From assembly GCF_040782645.1 (NCBI RefSeq), contig NZ_CP160403.1:6235001-6299000 (forward strand): a stretch of 64,000 nucleotides of DNA, in the 5' to 3' direction. The stretch comes from Streptomyces sp. HUAS ZL42 (GTDB taxonomy: Bacteria > Actinomycetota > Actinomycetes > Streptomycetales > Streptomycetaceae). Below are positions 13,835 through 62,594 of the stretch, in pieces. The position numbers and the translations under genes are program-made. Positions within the stretch are counted from its first letter, which is position 1; every line of letters begins with the position of its first letter. Under the pieces are notes generated by a model that did not search any database, was not told the DNA's origin, and saw nothing but the letters and a program-made list of their open reading frames with translations.

Positions 13835-13858
13835 CGCCCACGGCGTTTGTAGGTACGT

Positions 13859-13898: not shown

Positions 13899-13905
13899 CC
13901 TCCCC

Positions 13906-13990: not shown

Positions 13991-14035
13991 CACCACCACG
14001 GCGGGTGGAAGGCGGCCCACTCGCCGAAGGCACCC

Positions 14036-14053
14036 GCTACGCCCCCGGCGAAC
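14036..14053 (+). promoter_or_regulatory. Candidate ClgR box of the clpP1P2 operon
   Basis: GCTACGCCCCCGGCGAAC matches the actinobacterial ClgR consensus WNNWCGCYNANRGCGWWS except at the first W and the central A. It lies about 40-55 bp upstream of the -10-like TAGGGT at 14092-14097, a suitable place for an activator. In S. lividans and S. coelicolor the ClgR activator is known to control clpP1P2. Confidence 0.6.
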
Positions 14054-14091
14054 ACCCCCCGCTGCGGGATTCCCCGAAGGGACCCGCGCGT

Positions 14092-14097
14092 TAGGGT
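14092..14097 (+). promoter_or_regulatory. -10-like element of clpP1
   Basis: TAGGGT with transcription expected to start near 14103. This is downstream of ATG 14100-14102, so the longest in-frame reading from 14100 is unlikely to be the translation start. Confidence 0.45.
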
Positions 14098-14150
14098 CCA
14101 TGAATACGGGGGGAGTGGAGTCCCCGACGGCTCCAGCCCCGCAGGGATAC

Positions 14151-17034: not shown

Positions 17035-17049
17035 CCGCCCACGCACACG

Positions 17050-17086
17050 ACGAGGGGGCCCCGGTCGACGACCGGGGCCCCCTCGT
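17050..17086. terminator. Bidirectional terminator of clpX and the convergent gene
   Basis: An 18-bp perfect palindromic stem (17050-17067 with 17069-17086, arm ACGAGGGGGCCCCGGTCG) centred on A17068. It begins 16 nt after the clpX stop and lies 15 nt from the end of the leftward gene at 17101, so it works for both. Confidence 0.92.
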
Positions 17087-17100
17087 GCTCGGCGAGTGCG

Positions 17101-18111
17101 TCAGGCCTTCACACGGACTTCCTCGCGCAGCTTCGTGGTGATGTCGATCGCCGACTCCTTGGTGATGCCCTTGGTGTTGTCACCCGGGGACACCATGGCG
17201 ATGGTGCTGTAGTCGGACCACACACAGAACCAGTCCGTCGACTCCTTCTTGGTGAGGGAGTTGGTGCTCTTGGCCGCCTGGCACTTCATGACCGCACCGT
17301 CGATGTTCGCCTCCTCGGGCTGCCCGAGCAACTCGGTGTCGGACGACGTGCCGTTCGACGAGCTCGAGGAGTCGGAGTTGCTGTCCTCGATCTCCTTCTG
17401 GATGGCGGCGAAGTACTTGTCCAGTGCGGCCTCGGGGTCGGCGATCTTGCCGTAACCGCCCAGCATCGTGATGCCCTTGGCCGTCAGCAACTCGGACGTG
17501 GGCGGCAGGTCCTTGGGGTCGGGGTTCTGCGGGTCGTAGTCACCGAAGTCGGCCGTCGACCACTGGCCGATGACGGCCTTGCCGTCCTTGACGCCGCTGG
17601 CATCCAGATACTTCGTGGTGTCGGAGTCGTTGCTCTCGCCGCCCTTGCCGACCCGCTTGTACTCGCTGATCACCGTGCTCGGCGTGTTCAGCTTGTGGGC
17701 ACCGTCGTCCTCGAGGCCGCCCGCGCCGCCGCTCGCTCCGAGCACGAAGTACGCGCCCACACCGATCGCCGCCACGGCGGCGACGACACCGATGACGATG
17801 CCCGCCTTCTTCCCGCCGCCGGAAGCCGGCGGCTGCGGCGCCCCGTACGGGGCCTGGCCGTAGGGCGGCTGCTGACCGTACGGGGGCTGCTGGCCGTACG
17901 CGGGCTGCTGACCGTAGGGAGGGGTCTGCGGCGGGACGCCCTGCGGGGCCTGCTGCGGGTGGCCGTAACCGGGCTGGGCGGGCGGGGACTGCTGAGGGTA
18001 GCCATAGCCGGGCTGGGGGGCCTGCGGCGGCTGGCCGTAGGGGCCCGGCTGGCCGTACGGTCCGGGCTGCTGGGGCTGCCCGCCGTACGGGCCCGGCTGG
18101 TTGTAGCTCAT
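17101..18111 (-). CDS. Single-TM protein with Pro/Gln/Gly/Tyr-rich cytoplasmic domain
   Basis: 336 aa from ATG 18111 (GGAGGGG 8 nt upstream). Residues 1-110 are low-complexity repeats of the type QPGPYGQ, GYGYPQQ and YGQQP, probably disordered and cytoplasmic. One membrane helix follows ([20 protein letters not shown], about 118-138). An extracytoplasmic domain of about 190 aa starts at [11 protein letters not shown] and includes a Ser/Asn-rich loop ([15 protein letters not shown]) and two cysteines (VMKCQAA, WFCVW) that may form a disulfide. It resembles many streptomycete DUF4190-like envelope proteins; no function is assignable. Divergent from valS. Confidence 0.82.
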
Positions 18112-18247
18112 TTCTGGGTTCCCCTCCAGATGCTTATGTGTTCCTGACATCCTGGCCCAGGCAGCGCGCGAGCAGCGCATCGGGGGGCGCACCGTTACAG
18201 AACAAACGCGTTTCGGGACACGGCTGCGACACCCCTAAACTGAGCGG

Positions 18248-48000: not shown

Positions 48001-49155
48001 GAGGTCACCTCGCTGGGGCTCGTGCAGATGACCCGCAAGCGGGTCGGGCAGGGCCTGCTGGAGTCCTTCTCCGAGACCTGCGTGCACTGCAACGGCCGCG
48101 GTGTCATCGTCCACATGGACCAGCCGGCGGCTCCCGGTGGCGGCAAGCGCAAGAAGCGCGGGCGCGGCGACGGGCATGTCCACGAGGCCGTGGCCGCGGA
48201 GATCGTCGAGCCCGTCGAGTCCGGTGTGACCGCGGAGGAGGAGGCCGAGACCGAGGCCGAGATCGTCGCCGAGGTCGCCGAGCCGGTCGCTCTGGCGGCC
48301 CCCGACTTCGCGCCGGACGAGGAGCTGTACAGCAGCGTCGCGGAGGCCGAGGCCGCCGCCACCCGCGGTCGGACCCGGCGCCGGGCGAGCCGTCGTGCGT
48401 CGGCTCCGGCGGGTGCGCCGAAGAGCGGGCCCGGGAGGCAGGCGGCCCCCGCCGAGGTGCCGACCGCTCAGGAGGTCACCGCCGAGGCGGAGGCCGAGCA
48501 GCCGGTGCAGCCGGAGGAGGCCGTCGTCGCGCAGGCCCAGCCGGCCGCCGTCGAGGACCCGGTCGTCGAGGCCCCGGCCGCCGAGGAGGCCGCGCCCAAG
48601 GGCCGTACGCGTCGTCGTGCGACCCGGAAGGTGTCCGCTCCGGCAGGTTCCCCCGCGGGGTCGGAGGCCGCCGTGGTGACGGTGTCCGAGTCCGCGGCGC
48701 AGGCGCCCGAGGCTCCGGTGGAGCAGCCCGCGGCCCAGCCGGAGCCCGTGGCGGAGGCGCCGGCCGAGAGTGCCGCCCCGGCCCGTCCGCGGCGCCGCGC
48801 CGTGCGCAAGGCCACCGCGCCCACCGCGTCCGAGGAGACGGCCGTCGTGGTCGTCCCGTCGGCGGAGGTGCCGGAGGCCCCCGCGGAGTCCGGTGCCGAG
48901 GCCGCGGAGTCCGCCGAGTCCGCCAGTGCCGAGGCCGCGGCTCCGGCCAAGAAGACGGCCGCCCGCAAGACGGCCAAGAAGGCCACCGCGAAGAAGGCCG
49001 CGACCAAGAAGACCGCGGCCAAGAAGACGGCGGCGAAGAAGGCCACGGCCAAGAAGGCGGCGAAGACCACCAAGGCGGCCGCGAAGTCGACGTCGAAGAA
49101 GACCGCGGCGGCGCAGCAGACGCTGCCGTCCGTCTCGGCCACGGCGGAGGACTGA
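45052..49155 (+). CDS. rne: Ribonuclease E/G
   Basis: 1,367 aa, the long streptomycete form. The catalytic core spans about residues 600-1015: S1-like segment with HYVNKEQSTSYVGNVYLGKV, 5' sensor and RNase H-like parts, metal ligands in DVNTGKFTG (about 907) and DFIDM (about 951), and the Zn-link CVHCNGRG (about 1010). Flanking arms are Ala/Glu/Arg-rich and carry copies of a motif RTRRRATRRxSAPAGAP: four plus one degenerate before the core and three after it. A C-terminal Lys/Ala tail (KKTAAKKTAAKKATAKKAAK) follows. It cleaves mRNA and rRNA precursors and is known in S. coelicolor to bind PNPase. It ends at a strong terminator. Confidence 0.96.
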   Translation: MLEPIEPTEGSELTTPSDTLPPRKRRRAASRPAGPPAATMAEGEEEKKTDESVEGFESLETPVVTAEVEETEEAEEIQEPEVAAAEAPAEEAAPAARTRRRATRRASAPAGAPVTAEAAETVVPAAAATEESAPAAEAPAEEAAPAARTRRRATRRTSAPSGAPVTAEAAESAETVVPTAEVAEVTEVAEIAEAAEASAGRTRRRATRRASAPAGAPKGAEIEQAAEAQVSAEPEPEPALTAAGEAEAPDSDDDAAPRRTRRRATRRVSAPAAGAAEETETAVPAAAQEETAETKVPAAVGAGAGEAEAAEAEGAAPRRRRRVARKAAAGFSEPPAQPVAPEAEEDQAPRRPARPAVAVFQAPVFTEPMFQTPERAAAAAAAEAAQEAPEPAEAEELPEEQSGSRRRRRRRGAGYGDEAEAAQVTEAAAEDENEEAEESAEDAGEGDESEDTGSRRRRRRGGRRRRRGESAETDAETGESLDAESEELAAEQAEQDAEDTAEQVEEDEEEGGADEAGGSSSSSRRRRRRRRRAGDTSVDTEPGDGDPERTVVKVREPRKAAEPSDEVQSIKGSTRLEAKKQRRREGREQGRRRVPIITEAEFLARREAVERVMVVRQNGDRTQIGVLEDGVLVEHYVNKEQSTSYVGNVYLGKVQNVLPSMEAAFIDIGKGRNAVLYAGEVNFEALGMANGPRRIESALKSGQSVLVQVTKDPIGHKGARLTSQVSLPGRYLVYVPEGSMTGISRKLPDTERARLKTILKKIVPEDAGVIVRTAAEGASEDELRRDVERLQAQWEDIRKKSKNGGSSNAPSLLYGEPDMTVRVVRDIFNEDFSKVVVSGEDAWETVHGYVSHVAPDLAERLSKWTSEVDVFATYRIDEQLAKALDRKVWLPSGGSLVIDRTEAMVVIDVNTGKFTGQGGNLEETVTRNNLEAAEEIVRQLRLRDLGGIIVIDFIDMVLESNRDLVLRRLLECLGRDRTKHQVAEVTSLGLVQMTRKRVGQGLLESFSETCVHCNGRGVIVHMDQPAAPGGGKRKKRGRGDGHVHEAVAAEIVEPVESGVTAEEEAETEAEIVAEVAEPVALAAPDFAPDEELYSSVAEAEAAATRGRTRRRASRRASAPAGAPKSGPGRQAAPAEVPTAQEVTAEAEAEQPVQPEEAVVAQAQPAAVEDPVVEAPAAEEAAPKGRTRRRATRKVSAPAGSPAGSEAAVVTVSESAAQAPEAPVEQPAAQPEPVAEAPAESAAPARPRRRAVRKATAPTASEETAVVVVPSAEVPEAPAESGAEAAESAESASAEAAAPAKKTAARKTAKKATAKKAATKKTAAKKTAAKKATAKKAAKTTKAAAKSTSKKTAAAQQTLPSVSATAED

Positions 49156-49650: not shown

Positions 49651-50766
49651 ATGACAGACGCCCATGAATTCATACCGGCCGCCAAACCTGTGATCGGCGA
49701 GGAGGAGATCGAGGCAGCGGTACGGGTACTGCGCAGCGGCATGGTCGTACAAGGCCCCGAGGTGGCCGCCTTCGAGGCGGAGTTCTCGGAGCTGGTGGAC
49801 GGCCGTCACTGTGTCGCGGTCAACTCCGGCACCTCCGCGCTGCACATGACCCTCCTCGCCCTCGGCGTCGGCCCCGGTGACGAGGTCATCGTGCCGTCGT
49901 TCTCCTTCGCGGCCTCCGCCAACGCCGTGCGGCTCGTCGGTGCCGACGTGGTCTTCGCCGACATCGAGCCCGACACCTTCTGTCTGGACCCGGCGGCCGT
50001 CGAGGCGGCCCTCACGCCGCGCACCGCGGCGATCATGCCGGTCCACCTGTACGGCCACCCGGCCGCCATGGACAAGATCATGGCGATCGCCGGCCGGCAC
50101 GGGCTGGCCGTGGTGGAGGACGCCTGCCAGGCGCACGCGGCCGCGCTGCACGGCACGCCGGTCGGCGCCTTCGGCTCTGCGGGCACGTTCAGCTTCTACC
50201 CGACCAAGAACATGCACAGCCTCGAGGGCGGCATGGTCACCACCGGGGACGCGGAGCTCGCCCGCACCCTGCGCCTGCTGCGCAACCAGGGCATGGAGAA
50301 GCGCTACGCCAACGAGATCGTCGGCGCCAACGTCCGTATGACGGACGTGTCCGCCGCGATCGGCCGGGTCCAGCAGGCCAAGCTCGCCGGCTGGACCGAG
50401 CGGCGCATCGCCAACGCCGCGTACCTGACGGAGCACATCAGCGCGCCGAACGTGGTCACGCCCCGGGTCGCCGAGGGTGCACGCCACGTCTACCATCAGT
50501 ACACCGTCCGGGTTCCGGGTGACCGGGACGCCGCGATGGCGCGCCTCAGTGAGGCGGGCATCGGCAACGCGGTCTACTACCCGACGCCGATCCACCGGTT
50601 GAAGCCGTACTGGGAGCCCGACCAGAAGGCCGGCCGCACGTGGGAGCTGCCGGAGACGGAGCGCGCGGCCGCGGAGGTCGTGTCGCTGCCCGTTCACCCG
50701 GCGCTTTCCGCGCAGGATCTGGAGCGCATCGTGACCGCTGTGAACGCGCTGGGGGAGCACCTGTGA
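49651..50766 (+). CDS. PLP-dependent sugar aminotransferase (DegT/DnrJ/EryC1/StrS; WbpE-like)
   Basis: 371 aa from ATG 49651 (GGGGG six nt upstream); ATG 49645 is in frame but has no spacing to the ribosome-binding site. It begins FIPAAKPVIGEEEIEAAVRV and has the phosphate-binding SGTSALHM and the PLP lysine in FYPTKNMHSLEGGMV (about residue 186). The sequence style is that of aminotransferases acting on 3-keto or 4-keto UDP-sugars. With a neighbouring 3-dehydrogenase (GTGA overlap), the likely substrate is UDP-2-acetamido-3-oxo-glucuronate. First gene of the cluster. Confidence 0.9.
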   Translation: MTDAHEFIPAAKPVIGEEEIEAAVRVLRSGMVVQGPEVAAFEAEFSELVDGRHCVAVNSGTSALHMTLLALGVGPGDEVIVPSFSFAASANAVRLVGADVVFADIEPDTFCLDPAAVEAALTPRTAAIMPVHLYGHPAAMDKIMAIAGRHGLAVVEDACQAHAAALHGTPVGAFGSAGTFSFYPTKNMHSLEGGMVTTGDAELARTLRLLRNQGMEKRYANEIVGANVRMTDVSAAIGRVQQAKLAGWTERRIANAAYLTEHISAPNVVTPRVAEGARHVYHQYTVRVPGDRDAAMARLSEAGIGNAVYYPTPIHRLKPYWEPDQKAGRTWELPETERAAAEVVSLPVHPALSAQDLERIVTAVNALGEHL

Positions 50767-51782
50767 CCACGGGGACATCGCTGCGGGCCGGACTCGTCGG
50801 CCTCGGTTCCATGGGACGCCACCACGCGCGCGTCCTGGCCGGCCTGGAGGGCGTCGACTTCGTCGGCGTCGTCGACCCGATGGGGGACAAGCACGGTGCC
50901 GCGCAGGGCTCGCCCGTCCTGAACACCGTCGAAGAGCTCGTCGCGCTCGGCATCGACTACGCCGTCGTCGCCTGCCCCACCGCGCTGCACGAGCAGGTGG
51001 GCCTGCAGCTCGCCGAGGCCGGAGTCTGCGCGCTGGTCGAGAAGCCGGTCGCCGACACGGTGGAGGGCGCCCGCCGCCTGGTGGAGGCCTTCGAGTCGCG
51101 CGGACTGGTGGCCGGTGTCGGCCACATCGAGCGGTGCAACCCGGCACTGCGCTCGCTGCGCGCCCGGCTGGAGGCCGGTGAGCTCGGTGACGTCTACCAG
51201 GTCGTCACCCGCCGCCAGGGTCCCTTCCCGCACCGCATCGCCGACGTCGGCGTCGTCAAGGACCTCGCCACCCACGACATCGACCTCACCGGCTGGGTGA
51301 CGGGACGCAAGTACGTGTCCATCGCCGCCCACACCGTCTCCAAGAGCGGTCGCCAGCACGAGGACATGGTCTCCGCGGTGGGCCGCCTCGACGACGGGAC
51401 CATGGTCAACCACCTGGTCAACTGGCTCAGCCCGCTCAAGGAGCGCTTCACCTCGGTCACCGGCGAGCGCGGCTGCTTCATCGCCGACACCCTCACCGCG
51501 GACCTGACGTTCCACTCCAACGCCGCGGTGGCGACCGAGTGGGAGGCCCTGCAGGCCTTCCGCGGTGTCTCCGAGGGCGACATGATCCGCTACGCCATCC
51601 CGAAGCGCGAGCCGCTCCTCGTCGAACACGAGCTGTTCCGGGACGCGGTGCTCGGCAAGCCCGCCGACATCTGCACCCTGCGCCAGGGAATGCGAACGGT
51701 GGAGGTGGCGGCGGCGGTGCTGGAGTCGGCGGCCGCAGGGACGTCCCTGCGCTTCGACGACATCGGCAGTGGAACCGCCTGA
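50763..51782 (+). CDS. Gfo/Idh/MocA oxidoreductase (WlbA/WbpB-like UDP-sugar 3-dehydrogenase)
   Basis: 339 aa; GTG overlaps the TGA of the aminotransferase gene. The NAD-binding Rossmann motif is GLVGLGSMGRHHARV, the catalytic EKP motif lies in ALVEKPVADTVEGA, and the C-terminal domain has GHIERCNPALRSL, GPFPHRIADVGVVKDLATHD and NWLSPLKERFTSVTGERG, all characteristic of the UDP-GlcNAcA 3-dehydrogenase branch. It oxidises C3 of the UDP-uronic acid before transamination. The adjacent aminotransferase and distant acetyltransferase complete the step series. Confidence 0.88.
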   Translation: MTTGTSLRAGLVGLGSMGRHHARVLAGLEGVDFVGVVDPMGDKHGAAQGSPVLNTVEELVALGIDYAVVACPTALHEQVGLQLAEAGVCALVEKPVADTVEGARRLVEAFESRGLVAGVGHIERCNPALRSLRARLEAGELGDVYQVVTRRQGPFPHRIADVGVVKDLATHDIDLTGWVTGRKYVSIAAHTVSKSGRQHEDMVSAVGRLDDGTMVNHLVNWLSPLKERFTSVTGERGCFIADTLTADLTFHSNAAVATEWEALQAFRGVSEGDMIRYAIPKREPLLVEHELFRDAVLGKPADICTLRQGMRTVEVAAAVLESAAAGTSLRFDDIGSGTA

Positions 51783-51881
51783 CACCTGCCCGGCGTGTCC
51801 CTCACCGCTCGTCCCCGGTTCCGCGCAGATCGTGGAACCGGGGACGCCGAACTCCTGTCTTCCACCAAGAGGAACTTGTAG

Positions 51882-54470
51882 ATGGAATCCCCTGGCCGCC
51901 GGCCGCGCCTCGCCGTGATTGTCGCCAACGGCATCACCGGCGACTCCCGCGTACAGAAGACCGCTGTCGCCGCGGCGCGGGACGGGTGGGACGTGACCCT
52001 GATCGGCAGGAGCGACGGCAAGCGCGTCCAGCGCTCGAAGATGGGTCCGATCCAGGTGATCCGTGTCCCGGTCGGCACGGAGTTCCTGCGCGAGGTGAAC
52101 GCCCGCAAGGCCCACCCGCTGCGGGCCGCGGCCACCCAGTTCCGCATCCAGGACCCGGCGGCCCTGAAGCGTTACACCGCGAGCTACCGGGCGTGGGTCC
52201 GTCAGAAGTCCGCCGAGAGCAGCTGGGCGGGCACCCCGCGCCGGGCCTCCATCAAGGCGGCGCTGCGCGCCCGCCGGTCCGTGCACCGCCTGCGGGTCAG
52301 GGCGTTCAAGTGGGAGCAGCGCCGGCGGCCCACGGACCCGGCCCCGGTGCGGGACTGGCGTCGTGACTGGCCCCAGGTGGTCGATCTCGACCTCGCCTTC
52401 GGGCCGGTGATCGAGGAACTCGAGCCGGACGTCATCCACGCCAACGACGTGACGATGATCGCCACGGCCGCGCAGAGCGCCGCCCGGCTGCGCGCCAGGG
52501 GTCACAAGTGCGCATGGCTGTACGACGCGCACGAGTACATCAAGGGTGTGGAGTGGCCCAACGCCCGCCAGGCGTACGCGCTGCCCGCCGTGGAGGCCGA
52601 GTTCATCGGCCGCGCCGACGCGGTCGTCACCGTCTCCCCGCAGATGGCGGAGCTGCTCGCAGGCGACCACAAGCTGAAGGAACTGCCCCTGGTGGTGGGC
52701 AACTCGCCGGTCCGCGAGGTGATCGGCGGCGGCAGGTCGACCTCGTCGGTGCGTGAGGCCTGCGGCCTCGGCCCCGAGGTGCCGCTGATGGTGTATTCGG
52801 GCTGGATCGGCCGGGAGCGCGGTGTCGACGCCGTCATCGACGGTCTGCCCGACCTGCCCGGCTTCCACCTCGCCCTGGTGCACGGCCGGATGACGCCGCT
52901 GCTGGAGGAACTGCTCGCGCAGGCCGAGACCCTCGGTGTGCGGGACCGTGTCCACCTGGTGCCGTACGTGCCGCAGCACGAGGTCGCCGACTACCTCTCC
53001 TCCGCCGACCTCGGCCTCACGCCCTTCAAGCGCGTCCCCAACTGCGAGGTGTCGCTGCCGACGAAGGTCTCCGAGTACCTGCAGGCGGGGCTGCCGCTGG
53101 TCACCAGCGACGTGAAGGTCATCAAGGCGTACGTCGAGGAGCACGGCCTCGGCGAGGTGTGGACCTGGGACGACCCCAAGACGTTCGCGAAGGCCGCCGC
53201 ACGGGCCATGGAGAACCGCGACAAGCATGCCGCGGCCATTACCGAGGACGTCCTGACGGACCTGTCCTGGGAGGCCCAGAGCGGCAAGCTGCTGAAGCTG
53301 TACCGCGAGCTGTCGCAGAAGACCCCGCCCGGCCCGCGGCCCGAGGTGTCCTGGACCGTCCAGGAGACCCCCGACGCCGTCCGGACCGTGGAGATCACGG
53401 ACGGCGACGGCCAGCCGACGTGGAAGAAGCTCGGCGAGACCCGCATCCGGCTGGGCCTCGGTCCCGCCAACTACGCGGGCCAGGGCGCCGCGTACGCCCA
53501 GGCGATCACGCGCCTCAACCCGGACGTGTCCGTCGAGGTCGTGATGAACAAGCGCCCGGAGTCCTTCGACTACCCGGCCGACGTGTACGTCGACGCGACC
53601 CGGCTGCGTGAACTCGCCGTCCAGTTCCAGCAGGTGGAACGGATCGTCGGCCGCTACACGCACCTGCTGGTCGACGCGTTCATGCCGGTCTTCGGCTACC
53701 TCAACGGCTCGTCCATCGCCGGTGACCTCGACGCGCTGAAGCAGGCCCGGATCAAGGTCGCGCTGCTCGCTCACGGCAGCGACATCCGTCACCCCGAGAA
53801 CCACATGGCGCGCCACCCCTTCTCGCTCTTCCACGACGCCCCCGAGGGCGTCGTGGACAAGCTCCAGGACAAGGCCGAGCTGAACAAGCGGATCGCCATG
53901 GAGGCCGGTCTGCCGCTGTACGTCACCACGCCGGACCTCCTGGAGGACCTGCCGTCCGCGAAGTGGGCGCCGCTGGTGGTGGACGTGGCCGCCTGGGCCA
54001 CGGACCGTCCGGTGATGGAACGGAAGCGCCCGCTGGTGCTCCACGCACCGTCCAAGCGGTGGACCAAGGGCACCGACCGGATCATGCCGGTACTCACCGA
54101 GCTCCACGACCAGGGGCTCATCGAGTTCAGGCTTGCGGAAGGCATCCCGTGGGCCGAGATGCGCGAGCTGGTGCAGAGCTGCGATCTCGTGCTCGACCAG
54201 TTCACCACCGGGAGCTACGGCACCTTCGCCGTCGAGGCGATGGCGGCGGGCAAGCCCGTCGTCGCCTACATCAGCGACGGTGTGAAGGCGGCGACGGACG
54301 GCGCGCTGCCGATTCTCGGCGCCACCCCCGACACCCTGCGCGAGGTTGTGCAGTCTCTCGTCGACGACCGCGAGGGCACGGCCCGCATCGGCCGGCAGTC
54401 CGTCGAGTTCGCCCGCACCTACCACGACGGGTCCTGGACCGCGCAGGTCCTGAGCGATTTCCTGAAGTGA
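51882..54470 (+). CDS. Two-headed GT-B glycosyltransferase
   Basis: 862 aa. Residues 1-470 form one GT4-like unit (AVIVANGITGDSRVQKTAVA, DVIHANDVTMIATAA, LMVYSGWIGRERGVDAVIDG, acceptor/donor motif VSEYLQAGLPLVTSD). Residues 490-862 form a second GT-B-like unit with RIRLGLGPANYAGQGAAYAQ, ALLAHGSDIRHPE, VLHAPSKRWTKGTDRIMPVL and a donor-site segment GSYGTFAVEAMAAGKPVVAY. Two complete domains in one chain suggest it adds two successive sugars. The first half is paralogous to the next gene. ATG 51882 with AGGA 9 nt upstream. Confidence 0.9.
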   Translation: MESPGRRPRLAVIVANGITGDSRVQKTAVAAARDGWDVTLIGRSDGKRVQRSKMGPIQVIRVPVGTEFLREVNARKAHPLRAAATQFRIQDPAALKRYTASYRAWVRQKSAESSWAGTPRRASIKAALRARRSVHRLRVRAFKWEQRRRPTDPAPVRDWRRDWPQVVDLDLAFGPVIEELEPDVIHANDVTMIATAAQSAARLRARGHKCAWLYDAHEYIKGVEWPNARQAYALPAVEAEFIGRADAVVTVSPQMAELLAGDHKLKELPLVVGNSPVREVIGGGRSTSSVREACGLGPEVPLMVYSGWIGRERGVDAVIDGLPDLPGFHLALVHGRMTPLLEELLAQAETLGVRDRVHLVPYVPQHEVADYLSSADLGLTPFKRVPNCEVSLPTKVSEYLQAGLPLVTSDVKVIKAYVEEHGLGEVWTWDDPKTFAKAAARAMENRDKHAAAITEDVLTDLSWEAQSGKLLKLYRELSQKTPPGPRPEVSWTVQETPDAVRTVEITDGDGQPTWKKLGETRIRLGLGPANYAGQGAAYAQAITRLNPDVSVEVVMNKRPESFDYPADVYVDATRLRELAVQFQQVERIVGRYTHLLVDAFMPVFGYLNGSSIAGDLDALKQARIKVALLAHGSDIRHPENHMARHPFSLFHDAPEGVVDKLQDKAELNKRIAMEAGLPLYVTTPDLLEDLPSAKWAPLVVDVAAWATDRPVMERKRPLVLHAPSKRWTKGTDRIMPVLTELHDQGLIEFRLAEGIPWAEMRELVQSCDLVLDQFTTGSYGTFAVEAMAAGKPVVAYISDGVKAATDGALPILGATPDTLREVVQSLVDDREGTARIGRQSVEFARTYHDGSWTAQVLSDFLK

Positions 54471-54490
54471 CCGGTTCAGAAAGGCTGTTC

Positions 54491-56074
54491 ATGGAAGCGC
54501 AGAGTGCCGACGCACCCCGCCCCGTCAAGGGCCGCGTCGTCATGCTGGTCGACAACAAGGTCGACGGCGACTCGCGAGTGCAGAAGGCCGCCGAGTCCGC
54601 CGCGGCCGCCGGGTGGGACGTGGTGCTGCTCGGCCTCGTCCGCTCCGGCAACGGCCGCACCTGGAAGCTCGGTGACGCCGAGGTCCGGCTGCTGCCGCTG
54701 AAGACGCCCCTGGCGAAGCGGCACGCCGAGCGGCACCGCTCGCTGCTGCGCCGTCCGTTCGCCTACCCGCCGGGGCCGATGGCCGCCTACCGCCGCCAGT
54801 GGGTCAAGGCCTGGCGGGCGGACGTGGCCACCCGCCGGGCGGCGCTGAAGGTGGCGCCCCAGGCTGTCGGCTCGCCCGTGTTCCGGAAGGCCGAGAAGGC
54901 CCGCCTCGCGGTGGCCGGCCCGGTCTCCAGGTTCATGCAGAAGTGGGTCGGGTTCCGCGCACGCCAGAGCAGCCAGGCGCAGAAGGCGGGCCGCGCCCTG
55001 CGCGGGCCGGTCGACCGTGCCTTCACCGCCGGCTGGACGGCCCTCAAGGGCAATCGCGCCTGGCGCCGCCTCGAACCGGTGCTGTGGGACTACGAACTGA
55101 CCTACGGCAAGGAGATCGACGCCCTCGAGCCCGATCTCATCCACGCCAACGACTTCCGGATGCTCGGTGTCGGCGCCCGCGCGGCCGTCCGCGCACGTGC
55201 CAAGGGCCGCACCGTCAAGCTGGTGTGGGACGCCCACGAGTTCTTGCCCGGGGTGCGCCCCTGGGAGGACAACGCCCACTGGATTCCCGGCAACACCGCG
55301 CACGAGAGCGAGTACGCCCCGTTCGCCGACGCCGTGGTCACCGTCTCCGAGGGCCTGGCCGACCTGCTGCGCGAGCGCCACGGCCTCAAGGAGCAGCCGA
55401 CCGTCGTGCTCAACGCCCCCGACCGTCCCGTCGAGCGGGACCAGGCGATCGAGGACGGCGAACCGGAGCCGGACCTGCGCGAGCTGTGCGGCATCGGACC
55501 GGACGTACCCCTCGTCGTCTACAGCGGCTCGCCCGGCCCGCAGCGCGGCCTCGGCGACATGGTGGAGGCCCTGCCGAAGCTGGACGGCGTCCACATGGCG
55601 TTCGTCGTCCCCGCGCCCGCGGCCGCCTACATCCAGGGCCTGCTCGGCCGCGCCCAGGAACTCGGCGTCGGCGACCGGCTGCACGCCGTCCCGTACGTCA
55701 AGCACTGGCAGGTGGTCCGCTTCCTGTCCGCGGCGAACGTGGGCTGCATCCCGATCCACCACTGGCCCAACCACGAGATCGCCCTCATCACCAAGTTCTT
55801 CGAGTACTCGCACGCCCGGCTGCCGCTGGTGGTGAGCGATGTGAAGACCATGTCCGAGGTGACCCGCGCCACGGGCCAGGGCGAGGTCTGCCGGGCCGAG
55901 GACGTCGACGACCTCGTACGCGCGATCAAGGCCGTGCTGGCCGAGCCCGACAAGTACACGGCGGCCTACGACAAGCCCGGTCTGCTCGACACCTGGACCT
56001 GGGAGGCACAGGCCGAGGTCCTGGACGGGCTCTACACCCGTCTCGTCTCCAGATCACCGAAGGTGGGCTCATGA
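54491..56074 (+). CDS. GT4-like glycosyltransferase
   Basis: 527 aa from ATG 54491 (AAAGG seven nt upstream); GTG 54467 overlapping the previous stop is a possible longer start. The N-terminal RVVMLVDNKVDGDSRVQKAA, the middle LIHANDFRMLGVGARAA, DAHEFLPGVRPW and LVVYSGSPGPQRGLGDMVEA, and the donor-side FEYSHARLPLVVSDVKTM run parallel to the first half of the 51882 protein, so the two arose by duplication. An inserted basic helical region (about 80-190) is peculiar to this pair. The stop overlaps the next start (ATGA). Confidence 0.9.
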   Translation: MEAQSADAPRPVKGRVVMLVDNKVDGDSRVQKAAESAAAAGWDVVLLGLVRSGNGRTWKLGDAEVRLLPLKTPLAKRHAERHRSLLRRPFAYPPGPMAAYRRQWVKAWRADVATRRAALKVAPQAVGSPVFRKAEKARLAVAGPVSRFMQKWVGFRARQSSQAQKAGRALRGPVDRAFTAGWTALKGNRAWRRLEPVLWDYELTYGKEIDALEPDLIHANDFRMLGVGARAAVRARAKGRTVKLVWDAHEFLPGVRPWEDNAHWIPGNTAHESEYAPFADAVVTVSEGLADLLRERHGLKEQPTVVLNAPDRPVERDQAIEDGEPEPDLRELCGIGPDVPLVVYSGSPGPQRGLGDMVEALPKLDGVHMAFVVPAPAAAYIQGLLGRAQELGVGDRLHAVPYVKHWQVVRFLSAANVGCIPIHHWPNHEIALITKFFEYSHARLPLVVSDVKTMSEVTRATGQGEVCRAEDVDDLVRAIKAVLAEPDKYTAAYDKPGLLDTWTWEAQAEVLDGLYTRLVSRSPKVGS

Positions 56075-57777
56075 GCACGGCTCCGGACGTCACCGTCGTC
56101 GTCGCTGTCTACAACACCATGCCCTACCTGACGGAGTGCCTGAACTCCCTGATCGGGCAGAGCATCGGCCGCAAGCGGCTGGAGATCGTCGCGGTCGACG
56201 ACGGCTCCACCGACGACAGCGGCGCCGAGCTCGACCGCTTCGCCGAGCGCTACCCGGACACCGTCAAGGTGATCCACCAGGCGAACTCCGGCGGCCCGGC
56301 CGCCCCCAGCAACCGCGCGCTGGAGGTGGCCACGGGCCGCTACGTCTACTTCATCGGCTCCGACGACTACCTCGGCGAGGAAGCGCTGGAGCGCATGGTG
56401 AAGTGCGCCGACAAGAACGGCTCGGACGTCGTCGTCGGCAAGATGGTCGGCACCAACGGCCGGTACGTGCACCAGGCGCTGTACAAGGAGAGCGACCCGG
56501 ACGTCAGCCTCTACGACTCCGCGCTGCCCTTCACCCTCGCCAACACCAAGCTGTTCCGCCGTGAGCTGGTCGAACAGCACAAGCTGCGCTTCCCCGAGCA
56601 TCTGCCCGTGGGCAGCGACCAGCCGTTCACCATAGAGGCGTGCGTCCGCGCGAAGAAGATCTCCGTGGTGGCCGACTACACCTGCTACTACGCGGTGAAG
56701 CGGGGCGACGCCAGCAACATCACCTACCGCGCCGACCATCTGGCGCGCCTGCGGTGCACGGCCGAGATCATGGACTTCACCGCCGACCTCATCGAAGCGG
56801 GCCCGAAGCGCGACGCGGTCCTGCGCCGGCACTTCACCTGGGAGCTGGCCAAGCTCGTCCAGGACGACTTCCCGGCCCTGGACGGCGCACTGCGGCGCGA
56901 GATCTGCACGGGCATCGCGAAGCTCGCGGACACCTACTTCACCGACGGCATCCGCGACGCCATGGACGTCAAGCGCCGGGTGCGGATCTGTCTGGCCCGG
57001 GCCGGCGCGGTCGACGAGCTGTGCGAGGCCATCACCTCGGAGAAGGAGAATGGCGCGCCCCCGTTCGTCGTCGAGGGCGACCGCGCCTACGCCCGCTACC
57101 CGGGCTTCCGCGACCCTCGCATCGGCCTGGCCGACCGCTGCTACGAGCTGGTGGGGGAAGCCGTCCCGGGCCGGCTGGCCGGCGGCACCGAACTGCTCGC
57201 CTCCGGCTGGGAGCAGGAGGACGACCGGATGGCCTACACCGCCTCGGTGAAGGTGGGCGTCCTCGGTGACGTGGACGGCGCCGTCCTGCGGCTGATGCGG
57301 GGCGCCATGCCCAAGTCGGCGGACAAGCCCAAGGCCCGGAGGCTGAAGGCCGACCACCAACTGCCGGCGCCGGTGGGCACGTTCACGTCGGAGCCCGCGC
57401 AGGACGGCACCGGCACGGTGCTGCACGCCCGCGTCCCGCTGGAGCAGCGCACCGTCAAACTGGGCGTCCGGCTGTACGTCGACGTCGCGGGATCGACGTA
57501 CGAGATCCCCGTGCGCGGCCAGGGGCTGCCCATGCCGCTGGCCCGGCTGTGGGGTCCGGAAGGCGATCCGTACCGCGCGTCGGCCGTGGTCAACCCCAAG
57601 GGGCGTGTCGTGATCGACACCGCCCAGCTGTATCCCCCGAAGCGGGCTCTGGTCCGGCGGGCACTGGGGGGGCTCGTCCGGAAACTGAAGTCCAAGGCCG
57701 TCGCCCTGAGGTCGAGCGGTGCCAAGAAGTCGAAGTCGATCGGCTCCAAGAAGCCGAACGGTTCCAAAAGGAAGTAG
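56071..57777 (+). CDS. GT2 glycosyltransferase with long C-terminal extension
   Basis: 568 aa. The GT-A domain covers about 1-230: TVVVAVYNTMPYLTECLNSL, EIVAVDDGSTDD, the DxD-like GSDDY, and GSDQPF. The remaining 330 residues are a helical bundle (to about 330) and then a beta-rich domain, ending in a Lys/Ser-rich tail (KKSKSIGSKKPNGSKRK). The layout recalls GT2 proteins of teichoic-acid-like clusters in streptomycetes. ATG 56071, coupled to the preceding gene by ATGA; the following dehydrogenase starts 9 bp after its stop. Confidence 0.9.
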   Translation: MSTAPDVTVVVAVYNTMPYLTECLNSLIGQSIGRKRLEIVAVDDGSTDDSGAELDRFAERYPDTVKVIHQANSGGPAAPSNRALEVATGRYVYFIGSDDYLGEEALERMVKCADKNGSDVVVGKMVGTNGRYVHQALYKESDPDVSLYDSALPFTLANTKLFRRELVEQHKLRFPEHLPVGSDQPFTIEACVRAKKISVVADYTCYYAVKRGDASNITYRADHLARLRCTAEIMDFTADLIEAGPKRDAVLRRHFTWELAKLVQDDFPALDGALRREICTGIAKLADTYFTDGIRDAMDVKRRVRICLARAGAVDELCEAITSEKENGAPPFVVEGDRAYARYPGFRDPRIGLADRCYELVGEAVPGRLAGGTELLASGWEQEDDRMAYTASVKVGVLGDVDGAVLRLMRGAMPKSADKPKARRLKADHQLPAPVGTFTSEPAQDGTGTVLHARVPLEQRTVKLGVRLYVDVAGSTYEIPVRGQGLPMPLARLWGPEGDPYRASAVVNPKGRVVIDTAQLYPPKRALVRRALGGLVRKLKSKAVALRSSGAKKSKSIGSKKPNGSKRK

Positions 57778-57786
57778 CGACCCTCC

Positions 57787-59070
57787 ATGAACATCTGTGT
57801 AGTAGCGCTCGGCAAGATCGGTCTCCCGCTGGCCGTGCAGTTCGCCTCCAAGGGCCACCGGGTCATCGGCGCGGACGTCAACGAGAAGGTCGTCGAGCTG
57901 GTCAACGCCGGTGTCGAGCCGTTCCCCGGTGAAAACGACCTGGACGTCAAGCTGAAGCAGGCCGTCGACGCCGGGCTGCTGAGCGCGACGACGGACACCA
58001 CGGACGCGGTCGCGCAGTCCGAGGCCGTCGTCGTGGTCGTCCCGCTGTTCGTCGACGCCGAGGGCGTGCCGGACTTCGGCTGGATGGACGCCGCGACCAA
58101 GGCGATCGCCCAGGGCCTCAAGCCGGGCACGCTCGTCTCGTACGAGACCACGCTGCCGGTCGGCACCACCCGCACCCGCTGGGCGCCGATGCTGGCCGAG
58201 GGCTCGGGCCTGACCGCCGGTGAGGACTTCCACCTGGTCTTCTCGCCGGAACGGGTGCTGACCGGCCGGGTCTTCGCCGACCTGCGCCGCTACCCGAAGC
58301 TGGTCGGCGGCGTCGACGAGGCGTCGACGGCCCGCGGTGTGGAGTTCTACGGGCAGGTCCTGGACTTCGACGCCCGCGACGACCTGCCCCAGCCGAACGG
58401 TGTGTGGGACCTGGGCACGGCCGAGGCCTCTGAGCTGGCCAAGCTCGCCGAGACGACGTACCGCGATGTCAACATCGGCCTCGCGAACCAGTTCGCCCGG
58501 TTCGCCGACCAGAACGGCATCGACGTCAAGAAGGTCATCGAGGCCTGCAACTCGCAGCCGTACAGCCACATCCACCAGCCGGGCATCGCCGTCGGTGGCC
58601 ACTGCATCCCGATCTACCCGCGGATGTACCTGTGGAACGACCCGGCGGCGACCGTCGTGCGCTCCGCCCGCGAGGCGAACGCCGCGATGCCGGAGTACGC
58701 GGTGGACCTGCTGGCGGCCGCGTACGGCGACCTGACCGGCGTGAACGTCCTCGTCCTGGGCGCGGCCTACCGCGGCGGCGTCAAGGAGACGGCCTTCTCG
58801 GGCGTCTTTCCGACGGTCGAGGCGCTCAAGGCGCGGGGCGCCGTCCCGTTCGTCTCGGACCCGATGTACACGGCCGACGAGCTCGCGGCGCACGGCCTCA
58901 CCCCGCACCGGGGCGAGAAGGTCACCGCGGCGGTCCTGCAGGCGGACCACGCCGAGTACCGCTTCCTCACGCCGGCCGACCTGCCGGACGTCAAGGTGCT
59001 GGTCGACGGGCGCCGGACCACCGATCCGGAGGCCTGGAAGGGCGTTCGCCGGGTAGTCATCGGCGGCTGA
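57787..59070 (+). CDS. Nucleotide-sugar 6-dehydrogenase (WbpA/WecC-like)
   Basis: 427 aa UDP-glucose/GDP-mannose dehydrogenase family. The NAD loop reads VVALGKIGLPLAVQFA, so the first Gly of the usual GxGxxG is Ala. Catalytic Cys273 stands in GGHCIPIYPRMYLW, and the structural Lys/Asn region is KLAETTYRDVNIGLANQF. It is closer to UDP-GlcNAc 6-dehydrogenases (WbpA, WecC partner type) than to UDP-glucose enzymes by these motifs. It would produce UDP-GlcNAc uronic acid, the first step of the pathway continued by 50763, 49651 and 61977. A terminator hairpin follows. Confidence 0.9.
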   Translation: MNICVVALGKIGLPLAVQFASKGHRVIGADVNEKVVELVNAGVEPFPGENDLDVKLKQAVDAGLLSATTDTTDAVAQSEAVVVVVPLFVDAEGVPDFGWMDAATKAIAQGLKPGTLVSYETTLPVGTTRTRWAPMLAEGSGLTAGEDFHLVFSPERVLTGRVFADLRRYPKLVGGVDEASTARGVEFYGQVLDFDARDDLPQPNGVWDLGTAEASELAKLAETTYRDVNIGLANQFARFADQNGIDVKKVIEACNSQPYSHIHQPGIAVGGHCIPIYPRMYLWNDPAATVVRSAREANAAMPEYAVDLLAAAYGDLTGVNVLVLGAAYRGGVKETAFSGVFPTVEALKARGAVPFVSDPMYTADELAAHGLTPHRGEKVTAAVLQADHAEYRFLTPADLPDVKVLVDGRRTTDPEAWKGVRRVVIGG

Positions 59071-59090
59071 CAGCCGACCGTCGTACGATG

Positions 59091-59116
59091 CGGCCCCGGC
59101 CATCCGGCCGGGGCCG
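59091..59116 (+). terminator. Hairpin after the sugar dehydrogenase gene
   Basis: CGGCCCCGGCC (59091-59101), loop ATCC, GGCCGGGGCCG (59106-59116), starting 20 nt after the stop at 59070. It lies inside the segment between ATG 59088 and GTG 59142, which favours the latter as start of the next gene. Confidence 0.8.
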
Positions 59117-59141
59117 TCCTCCTACCGCTCAGGAACCGTAC

Positions 59142-60440
59142 GTGCCCGTCGTCCGCCCCGCTCCCTCCGCACCGCCGGCGGTGCGGATCGCCGTGCGCGT
59201 GCGCCGCAGCAGGGCCGCCCTTCCGCTGCTGGTCTGCGTCCTGTACGCGGTGCTCCAGTTCGCGGCAGGGCCCCATTGGACGCTCTTTCCCGACTCCTAC
59301 CGGTACGCCCGCACGGCCGAGCGGTACCTCGGCGCCTCACCCGCGGAGGCGCACCGCACGGCGCTTGCCGCGTTCTGCGCGGCCCGCGCCGACCGCTCGG
59401 CCCACGACCTGCGGCTCCAGCCGACGACCCGGCGGAGCGAGCACGCCCTCAAGGCCGCCGCCGAACGCGCCTGCCTCGACCGCTGGGCCGATGCCGAGGA
59501 CGTGACCACGGCGGACCCGCGCTACCAGTCCATCTTCGCCGGCCGGCCCGGCTACCCCTTGCTCGCGGCGCCGTTCATCAAGGCCTTCGGTGTGTCGAAG
59601 GGCATGCGGCTGCTGGGGCTGCTCACGGCCGAGGCCGGCGCGCTGCTCGTTTTCGGTCTGCTCCGTGCGGCAGGTCTGACCCGGCCTGCGGCTCTCCTCG
59701 GCCAGGTCGCGTTCCTCGCCACACCACTCGGTTGGTGGAGTGCCCAGGCACTGAGCGAGGGACTGTTCACGGTGTGCGTGCTCGGCGTGCTGTGGGGCGG
59801 ACTTCTGCTGCTCAGGCGCCGCTCCCTGCCGAAAGCCGCCGCCTTCACCGCCGTCGCCTACGTGGCGGGCGCGGTCACCCGCTACTCGTCGGTGCTGGTG
59901 CTGGGGGCCTTCCTCGCCGCTGTCACGGCAGGCGCCCTGTGCTTCTCCGCCCCGCTGCGGCACCGGGGAACGGTCGTTCTCGCGGGACTGTCCGCGGTGG
60001 CGGCAGGCGGTGTCGCCGTGGCGATGAAGGTCCTCGGGCTGCCGTCCTCGCAGGTCACCCTGCAGGACACCTTCACCCACCACTTCGACACCCCCGAGGT
60101 CGCCGACCCCTGGGGTAGGCTGCTCCGCCTCGCCGCGGGATTCTGGCGGGACTGGGCCGCCCAGCAGGCCGAGCTGCCCTATTTCCTCGTGCTCACGGCT
60201 CTCGCCGTGTGGGCGCTGGTCAGGTACGGCGAGGGCCTCGGCCTGCTGGCCCTGGCGACCGCGCTCACCGGGGTGTGCCTGGTCACGGCCCATCCACTCG
60301 TCCAGGAGTCGGAGCGTCTTGGCATCCTGATGTGGACGCCCCTCGTCCTGGGTCTGCCACTCGTCGTCGATCGGCACTGGACCGCGCGTCCGGTGCGGGA
60401 ACTGGAGCTACGCTGTGCCGGTGTCTCGGATTCCCGCTGA
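59142..60440 (+). CDS. Polytopic membrane protein, GT-C-like
   Basis: 432 aa from GTG 59142 (AGGA 8 nt upstream); ATG 59088 is in frame but is followed by a hairpin. A basic N terminus precedes about nine or ten membrane helices. The first large extracytoplasmic loop (FPDSYRYARTAERYLGASPA to about residue 150) begins with an Asp next to aromatic residues, as in lipid-linked-sugar glycosyltransferases (GT39/ArnT-type), and has a Cys pair (AAFCAARA, AERACLDR). It might transfer a polyprenyl-linked sugar outside the membrane. Function inferred from topology only. It overlaps the next gene by 26 bp. Confidence 0.75.
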   Translation: MPVVRPAPSAPPAVRIAVRVRRSRAALPLLVCVLYAVLQFAAGPHWTLFPDSYRYARTAERYLGASPAEAHRTALAAFCAARADRSAHDLRLQPTTRRSEHALKAAAERACLDRWADAEDVTTADPRYQSIFAGRPGYPLLAAPFIKAFGVSKGMRLLGLLTAEAGALLVFGLLRAAGLTRPAALLGQVAFLATPLGWWSAQALSEGLFTVCVLGVLWGGLLLLRRRSLPKAAAFTAVAYVAGAVTRYSSVLVLGAFLAAVTAGALCFSAPLRHRGTVVLAGLSAVAAGGVAVAMKVLGLPSSQVTLQDTFTHHFDTPEVADPWGRLLRLAAGFWRDWAAQQAELPYFLVLTALAVWALVRYGEGLGLLALATALTGVCLVTAHPLVQESERLGILMWTPLVLGLPLVVDRHWTARPVRELELRCAGVSDSR

Positions 60441-61980
60441 GCGGTTGGTCACTCCCGTGCGTTGGCTGAGCTCCGGCCTGGCCAGGGCAGGAGCACCGAC
60501 TCTGGCGGCCCGCCTGCTGAACGTCCTGGCCAAGGAGGCCGGGGAGCCCAGACTGAAGGCCGATCTGCTGTCCGAGGCCGCGGAACTGGAGCTGTCCCAC
60601 GGCCTCACGCCGCGCCGCCTCAAGGCGGCCTACGCGGCCGAGCTCTCCTGCGCCGACGCGCTGTACAAGGAGGGACAGCGGGCGGCCGCGGCCGGGGCGG
60701 CGGCCAAGGCGCTGCTGCTCGCCTTCCACCGCATACCGCACGTCGACGGACTGGCCTCGCCGCTGGCCGAGGACCCGAAGGGCTTCACCGCCCCGATCCA
60801 CCGCAGCCGTGTCATGCGCGTGATAGCCAAGCCGCGCGGCCGCAAGGAGCCCGCCGCGCCGCCCCCGGACGACCGTCCCCTCAGGCTTCTCGTCGTCAAC
60901 CGGGGCAACGCAAACTTCCTGCAGCTCATCACCGAGCGGTACGAGCAGCACGCCGACGTCGAGGTCCGCACCCTCGACCTGGCCACCGACCCTGAACTGG
61001 CCCCCCTGGCCAAGGGCCTGCAGCGGATGATGGGGCGCTTCGCCGGAGGCCAGGGAGCCTACGGACGTGCGATCGAGGAAGCGTTGCGGCCCCACTTCGA
61101 CTGGGCCGACACGGTCTTCGTCGACTGGTGCTCGGCCGGTGCGGCGTTCCTGACCCTGGTCGACCCGGGCACCACGCGAGTGATCGTGCGGCTGCACAGC
61201 TACGAGGCCTTCAGCTACTGGCCTCACATCACGGACTTCTCCCGGGTCGACGACCTGATATTCGTCGGTGACCACGTGCGCGATCTCGTCACGGCCGCCG
61301 TGCCGCGGCTGTCGGCCGACGGCGCCCCACGGCTGCACGTGATCCACAACGCCATGAACCTGTCCGTGTACCGGCGCCCCAAGCGGCCCGAGGCGCGGTT
61401 CACGCTCGGCCTGGTGGGCGTCGGCCAGGTCGCCAAGGACCCCCGCTGGGCGATCGAGGTCCTGCGGCATCTGCGCGAGCAGGACGACCGTTACCGGCTG
61501 CTGCTCGTCGGCAGTGGGCTCAATCCCGAGGCCGGACCGGCCGTACGGGCCTACCACGACAGCCTGGAGCGGGACCTCGCCCGGCTGGAACCCTCGGGCG
61601 CGGTCCGCCGCGTCGGCCAGACCGGCGACGTGCCCGCCGTGCTCGAGGAGGTCGGGGTCATCCTCAGCTCCTCGGTGCGGGAGAGCTTCCACTGCGGATT
61701 CGTGGAGGGCGCCGCCAGCGGTGCCGTCCCCGTCACCCGTGACTGGCCGTTCTTCGCGGGCGGGGAGCACAGCGCCCGCACCCTCTTCCCGGCGGAGTGG
61801 GTGGCCGGCACGCCTCAGGAGGCGGCGCGGCGGATACTCGCCTGCACCGCGACCGAGGAGGCCTGGGTCAAGGCGGGCCAGGCGGCCGCCGAACACGCAC
61901 TCTCCGCCTGGGACTGGACCGTCGTACGCGACGATTTCGACCGGCTGCTGCTCGGCAGTCACAGGAAGGTTCAACAGTGA
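60415..61980 (+). CDS. GT4-family glycosyltransferase
   Basis: 521 aa from GTG 60415 with GGAG 7 nt upstream, inside the end of the preceding gene. An N-terminal helical domain of about 145 residues (ALYKEGQRAAAAGAAAKALL) precedes the GT-B fold: VIVRLHSYEAFSYWPHI, VIHNAMNLSVYRRPKRPEAR, FTLGLVGVGQVAKDPRWAIE and the donor-site segment SSSVRESFHCGFVEGAASGA with its Glu. The helical N-terminal domain is not in the other GTs of the cluster. The stop overlaps the acetyltransferase start (GTGA). Confidence 0.88.
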   Translation: MPVSRIPAERLVTPVRWLSSGLARAGAPTLAARLLNVLAKEAGEPRLKADLLSEAAELELSHGLTPRRLKAAYAAELSCADALYKEGQRAAAAGAAAKALLLAFHRIPHVDGLASPLAEDPKGFTAPIHRSRVMRVIAKPRGRKEPAAPPPDDRPLRLLVVNRGNANFLQLITERYEQHADVEVRTLDLATDPELAPLAKGLQRMMGRFAGGQGAYGRAIEEALRPHFDWADTVFVDWCSAGAAFLTLVDPGTTRVIVRLHSYEAFSYWPHITDFSRVDDLIFVGDHVRDLVTAAVPRLSADGAPRLHVIHNAMNLSVYRRPKRPEARFTLGLVGVGQVAKDPRWAIEVLRHLREQDDRYRLLLVGSGLNPEAGPAVRAYHDSLERDLARLEPSGAVRRVGQTGDVPAVLEEVGVILSSSVRESFHCGFVEGAASGAVPVTRDWPFFAGGEHSARTLFPAEWVAGTPQEAARRILACTATEEAWVKAGQAAAEHALSAWDWTVVRDDFDRLLLGSHRKVQQ

Positions 61981-62594
61981 GCTACACCATCAAGCCCACC
62001 GCCCAGGTCGACGAGAGCGCCGAGCTGGGTGACGGGACGACCGTGTGGGAACTCGCCCAGGTCCGCGAGAAGGCCCGCCTCGGTGAGGGCTGCGTCATCG
62101 GCCGCGGCGCCTACGTCGGTACGGGCGTGCGCATCGGCGACAACGTCAAGCTGCAGAACTACGCCCTGGTGTACGAGCCTGCCGAGCTCGGTGACGGCGT
62201 CTTCGTCGGCCCTGCCGTCGTCCTCACCAACGACCACTACCCGCGTTCCGTCGACCCCGAGGGCAAGCTCAAGCGCGGCGGCGACTGGGAGGCCGTGGGC
62301 GTCAAGGTGGCCGAGGGTGCCTCGCTGGGTGCCCGTTCGGTCTGTGTCGCACCGGTCCACATCGGCCGTTGGGCGCTGGTGGCCGCGGGCGCCGTCGTGA
62401 CCAAGGACGTCCCCGACTTCGCCCTGGTGGCCGGTGTCCCGGCCCGCCGGATCGGCTGGGTCGGCCGGGCCGGCGTACGGCTGGCCGAGCGCGAGGGCGA
62501 GGCGGGCGTGTGGGAGTGCCCGCAGACCGGCACCCGGTACGAGGAGCGGGAGGCCGACGGGGTCACCGAGCTGGTGGAGCTGCCGGGCGACTGA
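61977..62594 (+). CDS. Left-handed beta-helix N-acetyltransferase (WbpD/WlbB-like)
   Basis: 205 aa; GTG overlaps the TGA of the GT4 gene, with AGGAAGG 7 nt upstream. Hexapeptide repeats run through residues 10-150 (VDESAELGDGTTVWELAQVR, VGTGVRIGDNVKLQNYALVY). VVLTNDHYPRS supplies the acetyl-CoA-side His typical of sugar 3-amino N-acetyltransferases, and WALVAAGAVVTKDVPDFAL is the C-terminal coil. A 50-residue C-terminal addition has one cysteine (VWECPQTG). It would acetylate the 3-amino group of UDP-2-acetamido-3-amino-glucuronate using acetyl-CoA, the last step of the pathway. Confidence 0.88.
   Translation: MSYTIKPTAQVDESAELGDGTTVWELAQVREKARLGEGCVIGRGAYVGTGVRIGDNVKLQNYALVYEPAELGDGVFVGPAVVLTNDHYPRSVDPEGKLKRGGDWEAVGVKVAEGASLGARSVCVAPVHIGRWALVAAGAVVTKDVPDFALVAGVPARRIGWVGRAGVRLAEREGEAGVWECPQTGTRYEEREADGVTELVELPGD

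Follow-up and report, generated by a model that had tools for sequence, protein, structure and literature searches.

We analysed a window of 64,000 nucleotides, corresponding to bases 6235001-6299000 of the 9.87 Mb single-contig genome of Streptomyces sp. HUAS ZL42, in which a block of genes between positions 49651 and 62594 matches the published utr locus for teichuronic acid (TUA); the gene names used here follow that locus. The original prediction, made from the letters of the DNA, had placed in this block four enzyme genes for the uridine diphosphate (UDP) derivative of 2,3-diacetamido-glucuronic acid (UDP-GlcNAc3NAcA), together with four glycosyltransferase genes in the same direction, and this arrangement was confirmed: all four enzyme reading frames are open on the + strand, and their Pfam domains agree, three of the four having been scored on slightly longer open reading frames (ORFs). 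From 49651 to 62594 every gene lies on the + strand, overlapping its neighbour or separated from it by a short gap. The block begins with utrA (49651..50766, start possibly 49645), encoding a DegT-family, pyridoxal phosphate-dependent aminotransferase of 371 residues predicted to act in C-3 amination (PF01041, 411 bits on a longer ORF), and utrB (50763..51782), encoding a predicted 339-residue sugar 3-dehydrogenase of the Gfo/Idh family. There follow a tandem GT4-type glycosyltransferase of 862 residues with two Glycos_transf_1 stretches (51882..54470), which belongs to the variable part of the locus, a GT4-type glycosyltransferase of 527 residues (54491..56074; Glyco_transf_4 and Glycos_transf_1 on the longer ORF 53963-56074) and utrC (56071..57777), whose product joins a GT2 glycosyltransferase domain (PF00535, 102 bits) to a TarS linker domain (TarS_linker, PF22181, 47 bits; both on the longer ORF 54799-57777). 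The block continues with utrD (57787..59070), for a predicted UDP-N-acetylhexosamine (UDP-HexNAc) 6-dehydrogenase of 427 residues, a membrane protein gene (59088..60440; start uncertain, 59088 or 59142), a utrF-like gene for a 521-residue glycosyltransferase (60415..61980; Glyco_trans_1_4) and utrJ (61977..62594), for a hexapeptide N-acetyltransferase of 205 residues. All four glycosyltransferase genes lie between enzyme genes.

Upstream on the same strand is an RNase E/G gene (45052..49155; PF10150, 345 bits). Downstream, also on the + strand, an acyltransferase-3 membrane protein, a utrI-like putative O-acetyltransferase (PF01757, 82 bits; L009:47-1099), runs from an inferred start at 62915 to the window end at 64000 and on to genome position 6299099. 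Beyond the window, at L009:1293-15277 (genome 6299293-6313277), we found two FG-GAP proteins, a laminin-G protein of 1246 residues and an RHS protein of 2332 residues that bears a pretoxin HINT domain, all sitting between the utr cluster and rplU; further ORFs in L127 looked RHS-like by eye.

A TUA locus named utr has been published for S. griseus and S. antibioticus (PMC13274773, Cell 2025). In S. griseus, utrA encodes an aminotransferase, utrB an oxidase, utrC a TarS-like transferase, utrD a dehydrogenase and utrE a 4-epimerase, with a divergent utrF-J operon, and the neighbours are SGR_4953 (L21), SGR_4954 (L27), SGR_4956 (TarIJ) and SGR_4957 (TagF) (PMC13274773). When compared with S. griseus NCTC13033 (L082), the products of the window were 85% (UtrA), 90% (UtrB), 67% (UtrC, 525 residues) and 88% (UtrD) identical to their counterparts; the 521-residue transferase was 54% identical to UtrF over 510 residues and the acyltransferase 28% identical to UtrI. 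UtrJ has an 84% match in the same genome, next to utrI and just past the end of L082, in a locus (L144) that overlaps that end. UtrC carries Asp183 in the shared motif GSDQPF, corresponding to Asp181 of S. griseus, where the substitution D181N abolished toxin sensitivity (PMC13274773). The landmarks are also present: in L127 we found L21 (12134-12580), L27 (12595-12849), Obg (12986-14422), a TarIJ-like fusion of IspD and short-chain dehydrogenase/reductase domains (15935-17479) and a weak Glyphos_transf match (17639-19798), and this group lies about 46 kb beyond RNase E in the strain's own genome. Orthology, gene order and landmarks together therefore identify the block as the same locus: it is the version of the Streptomyces utr-type TUA locus carried by a new strain. 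Among the papers listed in our literature searches, judged from titles and the openings of abstracts, PMC13274773 alone describes a Streptomyces locus of this kind.

The arrangement recurs widely. We took the best 80 of 210 relatives of the Gfo protein from one genome scan, with flanks of at most 10 kb, in which the absence of a gene carries no weight. The genes for aminotransferase, Gfo protein, UtrC-type glycosyltransferase and dehydrogenase (A-B-C-D) occur in that order in all 80 loci, some with other transferases between them, and RNase E lies upstream of utrA in 74; in the remaining six the sequence before the Gfo match is shorter than 2.5 kb. Around this core the content varies: UtrH was found in 46 loci, UtrJ in 44, the 527-residue transferase type in 42, UtrG in 39, the UtrF type in 34 and UtrE in 30, followed by the 862-residue type (13), the acyltransferase type of the window (11), the UtrI type (8), FG-GAP proteins (6), the membrane protein (6) and laminin-G proteins (3). 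In a set of 15 loci, four from the same genus and 11 from other families, hexapeptide, aminotransferase and Gfo genes share one stretch in every case; the dehydrogenase is also present in 11, and in the other four (L039, L041, L042, L045) the contig ends 0.05-6.2 kb past the Gfo gene. Co-occurrence of the enzyme genes exceeds chance. The Gfo protein itself reaches at least 87% identity in 4 of 24 same-genus relatives, the other 20 having at most 38% among the matches listed, and at least 65% in each of the 15 genomes that represent other families within the order; at such identity it was absent from the single genome outside the order.

We next consider how the four enzymes relate to characterised ones. 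UtrA carries FYPTKN with Lys186, UtrB EKP (Lys94) and THD (His171), UtrD GGHCIP with Cys273 and UtrJ TNDH at residues 84-87; we take these to be the catalytic residues of their enzymes. UtrA, whose best PDB chain is 7b0d (306 bits, with 230 bits for WbpE, 3nyu), is a predicted DegT-family transaminase, with identities of 46-49% to four haloarchaeal proteins and 39-41% to four from Gram-negative bacteria. UtrD scored 282 bits with TIGR03026 and 245 and 190 bits with two UDP-N-acetylmannosamine (UDP-ManNAc) dehydrogenase models, both below their cut-offs; AglM (122), TviB (101), TuaD (77) and PRK15057 (38 bits) came lower. Its assignment as a UDP-glucose dehydrogenase was rejected on the contrast between TuaD and the UDP-ManNAc models, and UtrD is a predicted UDP-HexNAc dehydrogenase, not one of the UDP-glucose type. 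It is 38-41% identical to five haloarchaeal and 29-33% to four Gram-negative proteins, with 33% to a protein annotated as WbpA. UtrJ has as its best solved match 3mqg, presumably WlbB (151 bits over residues 4-196); it is 40-46% identical to four Gram-negative WbpD-like proteins and 35-38%, over 141-144 residues, to four haloarchaeal acyltransferases, and is WbpD/WlbB-like by sequence.

UtrB fitted neither characterised lineage. The comparison used cassettes from plasmid records (L128-L131), each with DegT, acyltransferase and dehydrogenase genes beside the Gfo-type gene; the L130 protein is of the WbpB lineage (574 bits to 3oa2, 26 bits to NF040723) and the L131 protein of the WlbA lineage (534 bits to 3q2i). 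UtrB gave no blastp match to the L130 protein at E 1, and 24-26% identity over 116-199 residues to those of L128, L129 and L131 (24% over 196 residues for the WlbA-lineage protein); five haloarchaeal proteins reach 30-34% over 298-326 residues. In a tree, UtrB and the haloarchaeal rows split from the WlbA and WbpB rows (92/93, not starred). Membership of the WbpB lineage was rejected on the missing blastp match, on the NF040723 scores (191 bits for UtrB against 26 for the L130 protein) and on the absence of the WbpB chain 3oa2 among the matches listed (60 of 81 PDB matches), and membership of the WlbA lineage on 66 bits to 3q2k for the UtrB profile against 534 bits to 3q2i for the WlbA-lineage protein. 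Taken together, UtrA, UtrB and UtrD resemble their haloarchaeal counterparts more closely in sequence than those of the Gram-negative cassettes used for comparison, and UtrJ is nearer to WbpD/WlbB. The original prediction had described "exactly this set" of Wbp or Wlb enzymes, which on these kinships is too strong. It had also staked its case on a Gfo/Idh protein within the WlbA clade and a dehydrogenase apart from the UDP-glucose enzymes; the dehydrogenase does stand apart, and the Gfo/Idh protein falls outside the clade.

Since UtrB belongs to neither lineage, the step order of Pseudomonas should not be assumed. An order in which C-3 is oxidised first can be advanced tentatively: UtrB and UtrA would make UDP-GlcNAc3N from UDP-N-acetylglucosamine (UDP-GlcNAc), UtrJ would acetylate it and UtrD would oxidise C-6 last, giving the same product by a route unlike WbpA-B-E-D. 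GnnA and GnnB make UDP-GlcNAc3N directly from UDP-GlcNAc for lipid A. The best sequence match of UtrB among the PDB matches listed is GnnA (7bvj, a UDP-GlcNAc 3-dehydrogenase) with 97 bits for the profile, above the 66 bits of WlbA (3q2k), and among NCBIfam models UtrB scored highest with NF040723, for the archaeal UDP-GlcNAc 3-dehydrogenase, at 191 bits, which is far below the 450-bit cut-off. Seven Streptomyces plasmid records also hold UtrA/UtrB-like genes (59-60% for UtrB), and no UDP-sugar dehydrogenase was annotated within 8-10 kb of them in any of the five loci read, the gene tables being incomplete. These loci would fit, rather than show, an UtrA/UtrB-like pair that works without prior C-6 oxidation. 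Four of them (L133, L139, L141, L142) carry a cassette with genes for a TauD/TfdA dioxygenase, an FAD oxidoreductase, a hexapeptide-like protein annotated as phosphopantetheine-binding, a NUDIX hydrolase, DegT and Gfo, of which the NUDIX, DegT and Gfo genes alone are seen in L140.

In haloarchaeal plasmid loci the acyltransferase, DegT, Gfo and dehydrogenase genes stand in a row (L134, L135, L137); L132 has the last three together with the acyltransferase about 4 kb off, and in L136 the Gfo and dehydrogenase genes alone are annotated. L137 additionally has an annotated 2-epimerase. A bolder proposal, which we regard as rather doubtful, is that UtrA, UtrB and UtrD represent a third diacetamido-uronate lineage, distinct from Wbp and Wlb, which would share the hexapeptide-DegT-Gfo-dehydrogenase order with haloarchaea and act at C-3 before C-6, with an actinobacterial acetyltransferase nearer to WbpD/WlbB and, in this strain, a glycosyltransferase of the C class (GT-C) that would add an extracellular sugar.

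Whether the uronic acid keeps the gluco form depends on a 2-epimerase. According to PMC10622841, the UDP-GlcNAc3NAcA 2-epimerase is marked by Trp307, Tyr96 and Ala18; in UDP-GlcNAc enzymes the corresponding sites are occupied, in turn, by Arg, by either His or Gln, and by either Leu or Met. Across the whole genome we found a single Epimerase_2 protein, encoded at 1.43 Mb next to another dehydrogenase gene, 4.86 Mb from the locus. Read by motif, it has Arg, Val and Ile at the three sites, and TERP where UtrH has TEW. In UtrH proteins, drawn from 46 loci, the first site is Trp in 43 cases (Lys in one, unread in two) and the second is Tyr in 46/46, though position 18 is Leu instead of Ala in 46/46, and S. 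griseus UtrH scored 328 bits to the solved UDP-GlcNAc3NAcA epimerase against 232 to a UDP-GlcNAc enzyme. The possibility that another part of the genome encodes an epimerase of the WbpI/UtrH type was rejected on the UDP-GlcNAc-type residues of the sole candidate; the PDB scores did not decide. The UtrH-type enzyme thus seems to be missing from this genome, which makes the gluco form the better prediction, as had originally been proposed. We consider it very unlikely that a manno form is made with the distant epimerase: this protein shares 41% identity with UtrH across 358 residues and scores equally, 278.1 and 278.6 bits, with the solved UDP-GlcNAc3NAcA 2-epimerase and a UDP-GlcNAc one, yet its residues at the three sites speak against that role. 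Scarcely credible is the idea that the locus serves two separate sugars, the dehydrogenase making UDP-GlcNAcA, or UDP-ManNAcA through the distant epimerase, and the other three enzymes a neutral UDP-GlcNAc3NAc. UtrD does score best with UDP-ManNAc dehydrogenase among substrate-specific models, and the genome does hold one 2-epimerase; this epimerase, however, has its own dehydrogenase adjoining it, and GlcNAc3NAcA is among the sugars found by nuclear magnetic resonance (NMR) in S. griseus and S. antibioticus (PMC13274773).

In S. griseus, NMR gave a TUA of ManNAc3NAcA repeats with a reducing-end GlcNAc3NAcA on ribitol phosphate of teichoic acid; that of S. antibioticus is a beta-1,4 GlcNAc3NAcA homopolymer, made without utrE, utrF and utrH (PMC13274773). 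Deletions there showed that the polymer requires utrC in both species and utrG in S. antibioticus. By orthology to a locus with an NMR-solved product, the originally predicted UDP-GlcNAc3NAcA and surface glycan are supported, and the wall glycan can be refined: it is probably a teichuronic acid carried as a branch on ribitol teichoic acid. Its repeat unit is not predictable from the sequence, because searches of the cluster yielded no utrE, utrG or utrH and it contains two other transferases. The membrane protein, an ORF that the original prediction had passed over, has six hydrophobic stretches and gave no Pfam match on its longer ORF (58632-60440). The leading Foldseek matches of its low-confidence model (pLDDT 57.8; best E 0.035) are, we assume, mostly GT-C enzymes, and the protein may be a GT-C transferase.

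The explanation that we hold with considerable confidence is that of a utr-type TUA locus, with the following steps, for which we infer the enzyme activities and their order. UtrD, UtrB, UtrA and UtrJ would convert UDP-GlcNAc to UDP-GlcNAc3NAcA by C-6 oxidation, C-3 oxidation, transamination and N-acetylation, the oxidations occurring in either order. UtrC would start the chain by linking an initial GlcNAc3NAcA to a ribitol phosphate in the wall teichoic acid; the UtrF-like, tandem 862-residue and 527-residue transferases would then lengthen it. The membrane GT-C-like protein may attach an extracellular sugar, and O-acetylation of the chain is probably the work of the acyltransferase-3 protein. 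Without an UtrH-type epimerase, the uronic acid should remain gluco.

Several points weigh against this explanation, among them the position of UtrB outside both lineages and the equal scores and UtrH identity of the distant epimerase described above. The gene adjoining TarIJ matches the TagF family weakly (25.1 bits, cut-off 22.1), and four strong TagF-type matches sit about 0.47 Mb away. The S. griseus strain compared here is not that of PMC13274773; in that paper no pathway enzyme was assayed, and its authors call their own pathway speculative. Finally, UtrG, required for the S. antibioticus polymer, had no match in the strain's own genome; by tblastn, a near-identical query matches 39 of the 80 loci. 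We did not take this to exclude utr identity, because gene content around the utr core is described as variable (PMC13274773); chain extension must then rely on other enzymes.

Earlier work has already described this type of locus, what it makes in relatives and a biological role; new here are the variant in gene content and the mosaic pattern of relationships shown by the enzymes. Such teichuronic acids are docking sites for the umbrella toxins of rival Streptomyces (PMC13274773), and utr gene content therefore helps to predict who can attack whom.

Compared with WbpA-WbpB-WbpE-WbpD of Pseudomonas aeruginosa, the window shares the four predicted chemical steps and an acetyltransferase of the WbpD/WlbB kind; it differs in that UtrB is not WbpB-like, UtrD is nearer to haloarchaeal proteins than to the WbpA-annotated one, and no WbpI-type epimerase was recognised. 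With the Bordetella Wlb proteins (WlbA, WlbB), UtrJ is alike and UtrB unlike. The haloarchaeal operons, of putative function, have the same gene order as the actinobacterial loci from other families (L035-L038), but UtrJ is less similar to their acyltransferase than to the WbpD-like enzymes of Gram-negative bacteria. The closest system is the utr locus itself, where utrA-B-C-D orthologues likewise follow RNase E in that order, and which shares the utrJ, utrF-like and acyltransferase-3 genes, and the L21, L27, TarIJ and TagF-like landmarks. In contrast to it, the strain studied here has the 862-residue tandem and 527-residue glycosyltransferases inserted between utrB and utrC, an added membrane GT-C-like gene, a utrJ that runs in the same direction as utrA-D, and genes for FG-GAP, laminin-G and RHS proteins that separate the cluster from rplU.

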